Below are positions 20,167-24,331 of a DNA stretch of 25,066 bases, in pieces. Source of the DNA: a virus; IMG/VR virus record IMGVR_UViG_3300017971_000728, positions 1-25,066 of that record; one strand, 5' to 3'. Numbering within the stretch: the stretch's first letter is position 1; each line of letters opens with the position of its first letter. A program made the translations under genes and the position numbers. Below the pieces are notes generated by a model. It worked only from the letters and a program-made list of their open reading frames with translations, searched no databases and was not told the DNA's origin.

Positions 20167-20195
20167 CTTTTAGCACTAATGCAAATATTTGTCAA
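20167..20195 (-). promoter_or_regulatory. Leftward early promoter (PR-like)
   Basis: The -35 box TTGACA is at 20195-20190, the spacer is 17 nt, and the -10 box TAAAAG is at 20172-20167. The start point, about seven bases on, falls at about 20160, adjacent to the ATG at 20159. The spacer and -10 box hold the 18-bp operator shared with the rightward promoter. It should drive the Cro-like gene and the long leftward operon. Confidence 0.75.
20168..20185. promoter_or_regulatory. Operator copy 1 (18 bp, overlaps the leftward promoter)
   Basis: On the minus strand this reads TTTGCATTAGTGCTAAAA, identical over 18 bp to 20726-20743 on the plus strand. The core GCA-N4-TGC is symmetric with A/T-rich flanks, the form of a dimeric HTH operator. 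Placement between the -35 and -10 boxes means that binding would block the promoter. Confidence 0.8.
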
Positions 20196-20647: not shown

Positions 20648-20692
20648 GCCCCGCCTGGTTTTCCTGCCTCATACCCCTTTTTTTCACTTTTT

Positions 20693-20710
20693 TTTGGCGT
20701 TAATGCAAAA
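20693..20710. promoter_or_regulatory. Possible weaker operator upstream of the rightward promoter
   Basis: The core GCG-TTAA-TGC with flanking T and A runs aligns to the GCA-N4-TGC operator pattern with a single core change. It ends seven bases before the -35 box of the rightward promoter, where a second repressor dimer could bind cooperatively. The match is imperfect. Confidence 0.4.
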
Positions 20711-20716
20711 AAATGC

Positions 20717-20744
20717 TTGACTTCTTTTGCATTAGTGCTAAAAT
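20717..20744 (+). promoter_or_regulatory. Rightward early promoter (PL-like)
   Basis: The -35 box TTGACT is at 20717-20722, the spacer is 16 nt, and the -10 box TAAAAT is at 20739-20744. The start point should be near 20751, giving a roughly 26-nt leader that ends in the AGGGGGG ribosome-binding site of the first plus-strand gene. The operator copy at 20726-20743 spans spacer and -10 box. It should drive the recombination operon. Confidence 0.75.
20726..20743. promoter_or_regulatory. Operator copy 2 (18 bp, overlaps the rightward promoter)
   Basis: TTTGCATTAGTGCTAAAA on the plus strand, identical to operator copy 1 in reverse orientation about 540 bp away. It sits at the equivalent position within its promoter. 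Two identical operators at two divergent promoters are the lambda OL/OR arrangement and could allow looping across the repressor gene. Confidence 0.8.
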
Positions 20745-21236: not shown

Positions 21237-21376
21237 AAACAGGCAAGAGAGTATGGTTTGGAGAAAGCAGCATTGAAGCTATGGCTCGATTTATACTCGA
21301 GCTCGTTTTTCATGGTGCTTCGTATGAAATCGAAAACACTGATACTGGTTGGTTCGTAACGGTGTTACACGCCTAA
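21233..21376 (+). CDS. Small early protein (47 aa)
   Basis: The ATG at 21233 overlaps the TGA of the previous gene (ATGA) behind AGGGGGG, and the frame stops at TAA 21374-21376. The 47-aa product (starting MKTGKRVWFGESSIEAMARF) ends in a short hydrophobic stretch. The coupled start and strong ribosome-binding site support expression; the function is unknown. It is followed by a structured leader. Confidence 0.55.
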   Translation: MKTGKRVWFGESSIEAMARFILELVFHGASYEIENTDTGWFVTVLHA

Positions 21377-21380
21377 GCCT

Positions 21381-21417
21381 TTACGGTGCTCAGGGCTCCG
21401 GTCCTGGGTAGCCGTAA
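21381..21417 (+). promoter_or_regulatory. Hairpin leader before the DUF6166-like gene
   Basis: TTACGG (21381-21386) pairs with CCGTAA (21412-21417), and CTCAGG (21389-21394) pairs with CCTGGG (21403-21408) with one G-U pair, across a small internal loop. The 8-nt apical loop contains CTCC. The ribosome-binding site AGGGGAGGG lies about 14 nt after the stem, so the loop could contact it. No T-run follows. Confidence 0.4.
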
Positions 21418-21442
21418 GAGCTTAACTAAAGGGGAGGGCAGG

Positions 21443-21769
21443 ATGAATAACACAATTTTTATTGAAGGAAACTTCGACACAAGGGCAGTTCATCTTAACG
21501 GAAAACTTCTATCCCCGAGGCGATCTCAGAAAGCCTACAATCACAGCCCCGATGGTTTTAATTGGGGATATGGTGGCTCGGGCCCTTCACAACTAGCATT
21601 GGCATTGATGCTTGAACTAGCTCCAGAACAGGCAATGAATCACTATCAGGATTTCAAGTGGGCTCTTGTGGCGAGGTTGCCGGAAGGAGATTTCAAGATT
21701 TTTCTTTCTAAGAGTAGATTTCAAAAATGGCTAAAAGCCCCGGCTTCTACAATGTCATTGCTCGACTAA
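21443..21769 (+). CDS. DUF6166-like protein (108 aa)
   Basis: The start is the ATG at 21443 after GGGGAGGGCAGG. The central pattern GKLLSPRRSQKAYNHSPDGF followed by NWGYGGSGPSQLALALMLEL is the signature of a family common in phages, plasmids and mobile islands (DUF6166), in which a conserved Gly-Ser-Gly-Pro-x-Gln helix precedes YQDFKWALVARLP. The biochemical role is unknown. The start 23 residues further upstream lacks a ribosome-binding site and was not used. It is the fourth gene of the early plus-strand operon. Confidence 0.7.
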   Translation: MNNTIFIEGNFDTRAVHLNGKLLSPRRSQKAYNHSPDGFNWGYGGSGPSQLALALMLELAPEQAMNHYQDFKWALVARLPEGDFKIFLSKSRFQKWLKAPASTMSLLD

Positions 21770-21781
21770 CCTCTTGTCCCC

Positions 21782-21825
21782 CTGGCTCTCCCCACCCTTT
21801 GACTCTTTCCTCCGGGGAGGGCCAG
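21782..21825 (+). promoter_or_regulatory. Hairpin leader before the exported early gene
   Basis: CTGGCTCTCCCC (21782-21793) pairs with GGGGAGGGCCAG (21814-21825) over 12 bp with one G-U wobble and a 20-nt loop. The loop ends CCTCC, complementary to the GGAGG ribosome-binding site at 21832-21836. An RNA switch or translational brake is possible. The stem is not followed by T residues. Confidence 0.45.
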
Positions 21826-21843
21826 TAGAGAGGAGGTAAGCAC

Positions 21844-22200
21844 ATGAAGAAACTCTTTGTAATCTTAATTCCCTTAATTCTTCTCCTGCCTATGAGTGCG
21901 GGAGCCGTAATTTTCACCTTTGAAAACCACTCGAATCAAACAGCTTATTATTGGGCCTGGTGGGTAGATCATCCCCATAAGGAGATTCTCGGACCAATGA
22001 ATATTTGCGGGGGAGAGGTTCAAAAAGGAGACAGCCATCAAGTGAGTTATCAGTATCCTGCAGGTATTTATGGTTTTCGAATTACCATAGGTGAATCTGA
22101 ATTTGAAGATCTATACAAAATATCCGCTGATATGAATGTCGTGATTTCAATTGGCGAGGATGGGGTTGAGTTATTAGGGACGGCTTTGGACAGGATATAA
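21844..22200 (+). CDS. Exported early protein (118 aa), moron-like candidate
   Basis: GAGGAGG lies seven bases before the ATG. Residues 1-21 are a Sec signal (MKKLFVILIPLILLL, then SAGA). The mature part of about 97 aa is beta-rich: AVIFTFENHSNQTAYYWAWW, then GDSHQVSYQYPAGIYGFRIT and a DMNVVISIGEDG strand. One Cys (about 54) is present. No lipobox is seen. An exported protein from the early operon may alter the envelope, for example to block superinfection, or act as a lysogenic trait. No family is recognised. It directly precedes the 530-nt gene-free structured region. Confidence 0.6.
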   Translation: MKKLFVILIPLILLLPMSAGAVIFTFENHSNQTAYYWAWWVDHPHKEILGPMNICGGEVQKGDSHQVSYQYPAGIYGFRITIGESEFEDLYKISADMNVVISIGEDGVELLGTALDRI

Positions 22201-22240
22201 AAGTCTCCGGTGTGCGCCGAAAAGTCTATCTACAGTAAAG

Positions 22241-22702
22241 AATGCCAAAAGGCGTTAAAACAGAGGTAGCGTTTCGGACGGCACCAGGGGATTTTCGATT
22301 TGCTCTTTGAAATGCTGGCACCCATGAGAAACCCTCCGGTGCAGTAGGGTAAAGGTGGGAAAAAAGATCTGAGGTTCCCGAGAGGGTTAATCCATGCAAT
22401 GCCAGCGCCCAACAATGCTAATGAGCCAGGGCCTTTCAAATACAGAATCAGAAGGTCGCGCTCCCTGGCCATTAGCACCAAACCGATGCCCCGAATAGAG
22501 GGGCAGATGAAGGGGCTAGGCGAGCATCGTTAATTGCATTGGGTTAGGTCGGCGGTCAACGGACGCCAAATTAAACCGACCTCCTAGCCCCACCCCTAAA
22601 GGCAATAACCTGAGAGGTTCATATCCAGCTCTTCTTAGGAATTGCAGAAACGGCATTTATTGTTAATCCCGAAAGGGCGCAACGAGGCCTGCGATAGTGG
22701 CC
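22241..22702 (+). ncRNA. Candidate large structured RNA in a 530-nt gene-free region
   Basis: No credible gene is seen in 22201-22733 on either strand, in an otherwise gene-dense operon. Helices seen by eye: 22241-22246/22251-22256; 22313-22320/22400-22407; 22331-22335/22346-22350; 22377-22379/22384-22386 with GAGA loop; 22416-22431/22463-22477 (15 bp, one bulged A at 22424); 22487-22492/22500-22505; 22512-22520/22583-22591 enclosing 22546-22552/22576-22582; 22607-22611/22615-22619; 22668-22670/22675-22677 with GAAA loop. The two GNRA loops (GAGA and GAAA) only occur on the plus-strand transcript, so a plus-strand RNA is most likely. It resembles in style the large ornate phage RNAs (GOLLD, ROOL) but no family match is claimed. 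Confidence 0.6.
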
Positions 22703-22733
22703 CCACATAAAAAGCCTAGAGAAAGGGGGTTCT

Positions 22734-22949
22734 ATGGCGACTGAAGATAAGATATTCACAATTTTTCAGGAGATCCAGGGACTCGAGCGCGAAAGGTGCG
22801 CTTTGATCTGTGATGAAGTGGCCAAACGCTATCCGGTCGATATTTTCCCGAGGAATGGGAAAAGCCTGGATTGCTTAGGAGCAAAAATGGCGCGGTTGAC
22901 TTGCGCGAACATCAAAAGGCTGATCATAGGGAGAAATGGACAAGGCTAA
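22734..22949 (+). CDS. Small early protein (71 aa)
   Basis: The ATG at 22734 follows GAAAGGGGG. The 71-aa product is basic and has ERERCALICDEVAKRYPVD near 19-37, a Cys-containing helix seen in other short phage proteins, then GAKMARLTCANIKRLIIGR at the C-terminus. Three Cys (22, 26 and 57) could form a metal site, but the spacing is not a known zinc motif. It overlaps the start of the nuclease gene by 14 nt. Function unknown. Confidence 0.6.
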   Translation: MATEDKIFTIFQEIQGLERERCALICDEVAKRYPVDIFPRNGKSLDCLGAKMARLTCANIKRLIIGRNGQG

Positions 22950-23520
22950 CTACATCCGGGTGACAGAAGTCCTCGGTATTTATGTCGATTTCTCCAAGAT
23001 CAAGCCGGATGTTCTTGATTTCGCCACGGACCGGGGCAGCAGAGTACACGCTTTGACAGCGGGCTATGCTCAGGATGTTTGGATACCGGAGATCCCCGAA
23101 TACTGTAAAGGCTATTTCGACAGTTTCACCGGATGGTTTGATAAGCATGTAGTCAGAGTGATCTATGTCGAGGAGCGATTCTATAACAACGTCTATTTCT
23201 ATGCCGGGCAACCGGATTTCATCCTGGAAATGAGAAGCGAGGGGATTGTATTGATCGATGAGAAAACCCCGCAGACTCACTATCCAACCTGGGCGGGGCA
23301 GCTTGCCGCTTACCTGAACTTGGAAATAGCAAAGCCAGAGGAACGGTTAGCTTACAGTGGATACCCCCATCAACTCCTCATTATTGATAAAGGTGGATCC
23401 CTGCAACTGGATCCCCACGGCAAGAATGCCCGGATGAATTGGTATAAGGAAAGTGCAGAGGACTACGCGCAATTCCTTCATGCTTTGTCAGCATATCGAT
23501 ATTTTACAGAAAGGAGATAA
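22936..23520 (+). CDS. PD-(D/E)XK nuclease, phage recombination exonuclease type
   Basis: A 194-aa protein starting at the ATG at 22936 within the end of the previous gene. The core elements of the RecB/Cas4-type PD-(D/E)XK fold are RGSRVHALTAGYA (His38), YAGQPDFILEM (Asp94), VLIDEKTP (Asp108 and Lys110) and WAGQLAAYLNL (Gln122). This order is that of phage exonucleases that make single-stranded DNA for an annealing protein. The Bet-like gene two genes downstream is the expected partner. No Cys cluster for an iron-sulfur centre is seen, so it is not Cas4-like in that sense. Confidence 0.78.
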   Translation: MDKANYIRVTEVLGIYVDFSKIKPDVLDFATDRGSRVHALTAGYAQDVWIPEIPEYCKGYFDSFTGWFDKHVVRVIYVEERFYNNVYFYAGQPDFILEMRSEGIVLIDEKTPQTHYPTWAGQLAAYLNLEIAKPEERLAYSGYPHQLLIIDKGGSLQLDPHGKNARMNWYKESAEDYAQFLHALSAYRYFTERR

Positions 23521-23525
23521 TCAAA

Positions 23526-24245
23526 ATGCCAGTAAACTTCGCAACGATCGGGGAAAGCAAAAAGACAAAACAAACAACCAAAGCCCCCCCACCCCAAAAC
23601 GATCAGATCATTACACTGAATACAGCCCTGGTAAACCAGCTTAATGCTTTTATCGCGCAGGGAGAGGAGATCAAGGCGCAGGCCCTCAAGATCAAAGTGA
23701 AAGATGATAAGACGAAAGAAACAGCCACGGACCTCGGCGCCAGGATCCACAAGTTCATAAAAGAGATTGATGCCAAGGCAGACGATATTATAGCAGCACC
23801 GAAAAACTTTCTGAATACTGCTAACAATATCCGTAAAAAGGTCAAGAAGCCTTTTGAGGAAAGTAAAGATTATCTCAAGGGCGAACTCAAACAGCACAAG
23901 GCGCGGGAAGAATTGGCAGCGGCACAGCGCAGAGAAGCAGCCCGGAAAGCTACCGAAGAATTGGAAAAGAAACTCAACGAGGAAGCCAAGGCCTCCGGGA
24001 TCCAAGAGAACATTAAGGTGGATCCGATTGCAACCCCCGGCGTGGATAATATCACTCGAGCAGAGAGCGGAACTTCTTTCGGCAAGAAGAAACCTGTAGT
24101 CGAGGTTGTGGATCTTGAAAAGGTCCCGCGTGAATATCTCAAAATCGAAATAAGACTAAAAGCGGTGCAAGATGCTATGCGCCAGGGAGTGACGGAGATC
24201 CCCGGTCTAAAGCTGGATTGGGAGGACGACATAGAATTTCGATAG
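23526..24245 (+). CDS. Coiled-coil accessory protein of the recombination operon
   Basis: A 239-aa protein. The N-terminal 30 residues are Lys/Thr/Pro-rich, and residues about 75-165 are a long charged coiled coil (KKPFEESKDYLKGELKQHKA). The C-terminal part, VVDLEKVPREYLKIEIRLK then GVTEIPGLKLDWED, is a signature common in proteins encoded beside phage exonuclease or RecT/Bet genes (V-P-R-E-Y-L and I-P-G). The role is unknown; a structural or single-stranded-DNA handling part in recombination is suggested by context. It starts 5 nt after the nuclease gene. Confidence 0.7.
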   Translation: MPVNFATIGESKKTKQTTKAPPPQNDQIITLNTALVNQLNAFIAQGEEIKAQALKIKVKDDKTKETATDLGARIHKFIKEIDAKADDIIAAPKNFLNTANNIRKKVKKPFEESKDYLKGELKQHKAREELAAAQRREAARKATEELEKKLNEEAKASGIQENIKVDPIATPGVDNITRAESGTSFGKKKPVVEVVDLEKVPREYLKIEIRLKAVQDAMRQGVTEIPGLKLDWEDDIEFR

Positions 24246-24308
24246 ATGATTAAGCGCACGGCGCTTAATAATAGCTCGGCCAGGCTGTCTCTACGACCTT
24301 CATTGTAG
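24246..24308 (+). CDS. Possible 20-aa leader peptide inside the Bet-gene leader
   Basis: The ATG at 24246 follows directly on the TAG of the previous gene (TAGATG), and 20 sense codons run to a TAG at 24306-24308 located in the inner right arm of the main hairpin. Ribosomes finishing here could open that hairpin. There is no separate ribosome-binding site; re-initiation would be needed. Attenuation is conceivable, but this may be chance. Confidence 0.25.
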   Translation: MIKRTALNNSSARLSLRPSL

Positions 24309-24331
24309 AGTGCGCTACAGCCTGACCGGGC
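24249..24331 (+). promoter_or_regulatory. Structured leader of the Bet gene: two hairpins with a complementary bulge
   Basis: Hairpin 1 is a perfect 9-bp stem with a 3-nt loop (24249-24257/24261-24269). Hairpin 2 pairs 24274-24279/24326-24331 (6 bp, one G-U), 24281-24288/24317-24324 (8 bp) and 24289-24294/24305-24310 (6 bp), with a 6-nt bulge TGCGCT at 24311-24316. That bulge is exactly complementary to AGCGCA in hairpin 1 (24253-24258), so the two could switch partners. The ribosome-binding site AAAGGAGAG follows about 14 nt later. No T-tract is seen. This is a possible RNA switch or processing site. Confidence 0.5.

Follow-up and report, generated by a model that had tools for sequence, protein, structure and literature searches.

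The 533-nt gap at 22201-22733, which lies between two genes on the same strand of an uncultured phage genome, holds no gene-like frame, folds modestly better than shuffled sequence and is situated within the early rightward operon. Our preferred reading, put forward tentatively, is that, in a temperate-type phage, this element forms an untranslated and partly structured portion of the early rightward transcript, and that it would work as RNA. The window, i.e. the whole stretch of DNA that was analysed, is a complete IMG/VR virus record of 25,066 bases and a fragment of an uncultured BPP-1/epsilon15-like phage. Among its leftward genes are those for a head-tail connector, an epsilon15-like major capsid protein and a terminase large subunit, the last having 45% identity to the terminase of Bordetella phage BPP-1 and being related to those of other phages too. 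The terminase encoded by a second record of 6,164 nt, IMGVR_UViG_3300017963_003379, shares 100% identity with the window's, and this record evidently represents another assembly of the same virus population. The rightward genes start after a gene on the opposite strand for a 58-residue Cro/C1-type HTH protein, and are ordered DUF6874, DUF6166, 118-aa ORF, 533-nt gap, 71-aa ORF, exonuclease, Gam/Gp157-like protein and RecT. The features of this operon that concern the gap are the following:

20692-20743, plus strand: operator-like inverted repeats around the promoter, exact or near copies of TTTTAGCACTAATGCAAA
20717-20744, plus strand: probable promoter for early rightward transcription (TTGACT-16-TAAAAT with TG; 10/12 consensus match)
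21844-22200, plus strand: 118-aa ORF directly upstream of the gap, with a signal-peptide-like N terminus as judged by eye only
22201-22733, plus strand: the gap as a whole, noncoding and a candidate structured RNA; no gene-like frame; MFE -189.8 kcal/mol, z -2.6 to -4.2
22734-22949, plus strand: 71-aa ORF directly downstream of the gap, with an ATG at 22734, an RBS and a codon score of 0.074
22936-23520, plus strand: exonuclease of the recombination module (phrog_298, E 4.7e-16)

The 18-nt palindromic repeat TTTTAGCACTAATGCAAA is found at 20168-20185, 20692-20709 and 20726-20743, the last two copies overlapping the promoter-like site, and the arrangement of site and repeats reads as an operator-controlled early promoter. 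Located beside the Cro/C1-type HTH gene and the early promoter, the copies are likely operators of a lysis-lysogeny switch. The gap lies behind this promoter-like site and its palindromic operator-like repeats, in agreement with the rightward early operon position assigned to it in the original prediction; neither a promoter of its own nor a terminator-like site on the plus strand was found for the element at 22201-22733. Among the flanking genes, the 118-aa ORF gave neither a family match nor a phage match, and the 71-aa ORF showed a partial, weak match to a Pseudomonas phage protein (E 4e-3).

The gap follows immediately on the stop of the 118-aa ORF at 22200. That the gap itself holds no credible gene, as had been proposed, was borne out by a codon score trained on this phage's own genes: its six frames and five listed ORFs scored between -0.12 and +0.03, the sole positive-scoring frame carrying many stops, while the 23 genes of the window scored from 0.017 to 0.265. 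No tRNA or tmRNA gene is present in the window, which is a fragment.

The z of the whole element on the plus strand was -3.17 with 100 shuffles, -3.74 and -2.57 with two sets of 20, and -4.19 with 60, and it ranged from -2.0 to -3.2 on the reverse strand. Values based on 20 shuffles are noisy, since a tile at 1947 moved from -4.84 to -2.6 when 60 shuffles were used. When 533-nt tiles were compared with 60 shuffles each, the element had the lowest z (-4.2), the sense-strand coding tiles having a mean of -0.87 (sd 1.38) and a best value of -3.96. The element is thus above chance and not far outside the coding sequence of the same phage; a few coding tiles reach a lower sense-strand energy, and the strand difference in MFE across the whole element is ordinary. 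The excess of folding stability over shuffled controls is therefore real but modest, given coding tiles down to -3.96. Perfect Watson-Crick stems of at least 7 bp number six in the element versus 2.3 +/- 1.5 in shuffled sequence, a count that 5 of 100 shuffles equalled, and the ensemble diversity of 72 compares with 128 +/- 33 (one of 25 shuffles was as low). The stretch from 1 to 561, considered as a second structured gap, was rejected because it is a coding frame truncated where the contig ends; used as a control, it had a z of -2.98.

The element was divided into five domains:

22203-22292, plus strand: domain 1, a long imperfect hairpin of 35 pairs; z -6.66 on the plus strand and -2.46 on the minus strand
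22293-22411, plus strand: domain 2, a weak hairpin plus an 8-bp pair (22313-22320/22400-22407) enclosing 22330-22336/22382-22388; helices present, z -1.36
22416-22477, plus strand: domain 3, a 15-bp helix with one bulged A; exact stem, z -4.06 for 22412-22485
22487-22591, plus strand: domain 4, a 6-bp hairpin (22487-22505) and a 9-bp helix (22512-22520/22583-22591) with inner helices; z -2.87 for 22486-22600
22592-22733, plus strand: domain 5, the 3' part, which takes in a 3-bp GAAA hairpin (22668-22677) and the next gene's Shine-Dalgarno region; z -1.40

The folding excess sits in 22203-22292, 22416-22477 and 22487-22591, the remainder being near shuffled sequence. The view that the entire 530 nt forms a single fold is consequently not sustained, as two of the five sub-segments are barely more stable than shuffles. 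The strongest element of the gap is domain 1, which had been overlooked in the original prediction; when 92-nt windows were scanned, it ranked with the five lowest of 625 on the plus strand, the other four being two windows antisense to genes, one within a gene and the gap at 24241, and windows away from the element reached z -5.7. The helices that had been predicted are largely present: the 15-bp helix with one bulge as 22416-22423/22470-22477 plus 22425-22431/22463-22469, the 8-bp long-range pair 22313-22320/22400-22407 with one G-U, and the 6-bp hairpin as 22487-22492/22500-22505. The 9-bp helix 22512-22520/22583-22591 is likewise found, but the 7-bp helix said to lie within it is only possible, the MFE structure favouring other pairing there. 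Two GNRA-capped hairpins (22378 and 22668) exist as well, but they have 3-bp stems and carry no evidential value, being at chance level (two in the element versus a shuffle mean of 1.15), and the one at 22378 competes with the better helix 22330-22336/22382-22388.

These results bear on two explanations that dispense with an RNA function. The gap could be no more than intergenic filler, left by a mosaic joint or by the decay of an insertion, its hairpins being incidental and the element as a whole lacking a function, in keeping with two of five segments that fold about like shuffles and with coding tiles of comparable z; this we regard as rather unlikely, as neither domain 1 nor the 15-bp stem was equalled in stability by any of 200 shuffles each, and 530 nt of unused DNA in a dense operon is seldom retained by phage genomes. 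Alternatively, the hairpins could be the palindromes of a DNA element such as an origin, a recombination site or a packaging site, and several stems (22416-22477 and 22512-22591) are indeed simple Watson-Crick inverted repeats able to fold on either strand. This is very unlikely: no iterons or direct repeats were found inside the element, its GC content of 51% is not AT-rich, and domain 1 strongly favours the plus strand. On the reverse strand domain 1 is much weaker (-2.46), so that G-U pairs on the transcribed strand matter, whereas the drop in the other domains is smaller.

The element is located directly upstream of the RBS of the 71-aa ORF, and the MFE structure pairs 22592-22597 with 22725-22730, masking the G-run of this RBS, as would be expected of a cis-acting leader or attenuator of the riboregulator type controlling translation or transcription of the 71-aa ORF and the recombination genes. 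The RBS of the 118-aa gene similarly lies within a hairpin (21766-21840). Such a role is nevertheless quite doubtful, since the element is much larger than usual leaders and lacks a terminator-like site on its plus strand, and since the pairing of the 71-aa ORF's RBS (0.54) falls within the range of 0.10 to 0.80 among this phage's genes; occlusion of this RBS was accordingly rejected as a special feature.

Sense-strand hairpins are also found in further gaps of the operon, at 21373-21424, 21766-21840 and 24249-24331. The first, in the gap before the DUF6166 gene, is a strong plus-strand hairpin confined to the sense strand (z -2.9 versus -0.8). The second is a long plus-strand hairpin before the 118-aa gene, enclosing its RBS (z -3.5 on the plus and -1.4 on the minus strand), and is a candidate translational switch for this gene. 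The third, on the plus strand between the Gam-like gene and recT, combines a long two-part hairpin with a perfect hairpin of 9 bp, ATTAAGCGC/GCGCTTAAT; its z is -4.6 on the plus and -3.7 on the minus strand. Because these other gaps hold stable sense-strand hairpins, the 533-nt gap may be merely the largest of several structured spacers of the operon and not an RNA class of its own.

To our knowledge, phages have few large RNAs of unknown function, namely GOLLD and ROOL. Both often occur near tRNA islands, a setting that is typical and not strictly defining. The original prediction placed the element alongside these RNAs, a relation that was not upheld by covariance-model searches at E up to 10. 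Rfam gave no match over the whole window at gathering scores, and a cmscan of 22050-22850 with all 4227 families and E up to 10 returned a single match, attributed to chance and situated where the next gene starts, with no covariance-model match to group I or group II introns, RNase P, tmRNA, HEARO or OLE. Single-model searches at E up to 10 were negative for GOLLD (RF02032) and for ROOL (RF03087), the ROOL negative being the weaker one because no control genome gave a match either. The element resembles ROOL in its phage or prophage setting, its size (about 570-660 nt for ROOL), its many helices and the absence of a protein frame, and resembles GOLLD in being a candidate large RNA encoded by a phage; it differs from both in having no model match, from ROOL in having no tRNA genes nearby, and from GOLLD in having no tRNA island and in its length of 533 nt, versus more than 800 nt in many GOLLD members.

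GOLLD and ROOL are phage RNAs of 600-850 nt whose function is unknown; they assemble as RNA-only cages, and GOLLD is expressed in lytic growth (PMC12286853). The strongest form of our preferred reading, overlapping with it, would be a new class of large ornate noncoding RNA that acts like GOLLD or ROOL, through homo-oligomeric assembly and in lytic growth. The 533-nt length, the many helices, the phage setting, the early operon and the precedent of these two RNAs (PMC12286853) point in this direction. We consider this form distinctly unlikely, as there was no Rfam match, no homologue was found, no tRNA genes lie nearby as they frequently do for GOLLD and ROOL, the GNRA loops are at chance level, and the stability of the middle and 3' parts barely exceeds that of shuffles. 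The data are compatible with a new class of large ornate RNA but do not support one. It is likewise unlikely, if slightly less so, that the element belongs to a new class of large structured RNA which a podovirus-like temperate phage makes early in lytic growth and which has no sequence relationship to GOLLD and ROOL.

Relatives of the element were sought at several levels. By blastn (E up to 10), nothing but chance matches of 26-36 nt was found in 50,697 phage records and 72,556 plasmids, and exact 17-18-mers found none in viral (IMG/VR) and genome contigs. No homologue was recovered from IMG/VR viral contigs with the neighbouring proteins as baits (exonuclease, exonuclease alignment, RecT, 118-aa ORF and 71-aa ORF), nor from IMG/VR with the element's reverse-strand frames as pseudo-protein seeds, and the element was absent from the longer records of terminase relatives (L002-L040), which were searched whole. 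The contig of one such relative (L006, G003) carries, near 58722-59705, a DUF6166 homologue (50% identity) close to a weak RecT-like match, in an order different from that of the window. Covariance models were derived from the sequence of this element alone for 22412-22600 (R1) and for 22201-22292 (R2), so that distant relatives would escape them; neither gave a match in related loci, and R1 gave none in whole related records. Across 990 sampled genomes of three phyla, R1 gave one match (L053), with a score of 25.9 bits and an E of 4.9e-4 per genome. This match was taken as chance (about 0.2 are expected over the 398 genomes of the search concerned), and has the appearance of a GC-rich terminator-type hairpin between genes, without domain 1. 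The absence of homologues is weak evidence, because single-sequence models would miss distant relatives and the genomes searched came from three phyla; it speaks for intergenic filler insofar as no collection searched yielded a homologue.

The comparison with the nearest exo-Gam-RecT module, that of Methanosarcina virus MetMV (MK170447), points the same way. Its exonuclease is 33% identical to that of the window, and is followed by an adjoining Gam-like protein with RecT behind, in the same order. In MetMV, however, the genes are packed, with no noncoding gap ahead of the exonuclease where the window has its 533-nt gap, as would be expected if the gap were filler.

The reading of the element as a partly structured segment of the early transcript is supported by the lack of a coding frame, the lowest tile z (60 shuffles), the sub-domain z values of -6.7, -4.1 and -2.9, a well-defined ensemble, the same-strand operon with its operator-overlapped promoter, and the other structured gaps. 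It is weakened by coding tiles to -3.96, by 92-nt windows elsewhere to -5.7, by the ordinary strand difference in MFE, and by the lack of a homologue, of a promoter of its own and of a plus-strand terminator at the element. Under this reading, the operator-controlled promoter near 20717 would fire and yield a transcript that includes the element, whose RNA would fold into several stable hairpins, chiefly 22203-22292, 22416-22477 and 22487-22591. A stable noncoding RNA might then remain once the flanking mRNA is processed or degraded; alternatively, the element might serve as a structured spacer that slows decay, or as one that separates expression of the upstream genes from that of the recombination genes (71-aa ORF, exonuclease, Gam-like protein and RecT).

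As a single sequence for which no match was found and which folds modestly better than shuffles, the element stands at present as a listed candidate, worth rechecking once relatives have been sequenced. If it does represent a further class of large RNA, its presence in an early recombination operon would help in asking what such RNAs do.
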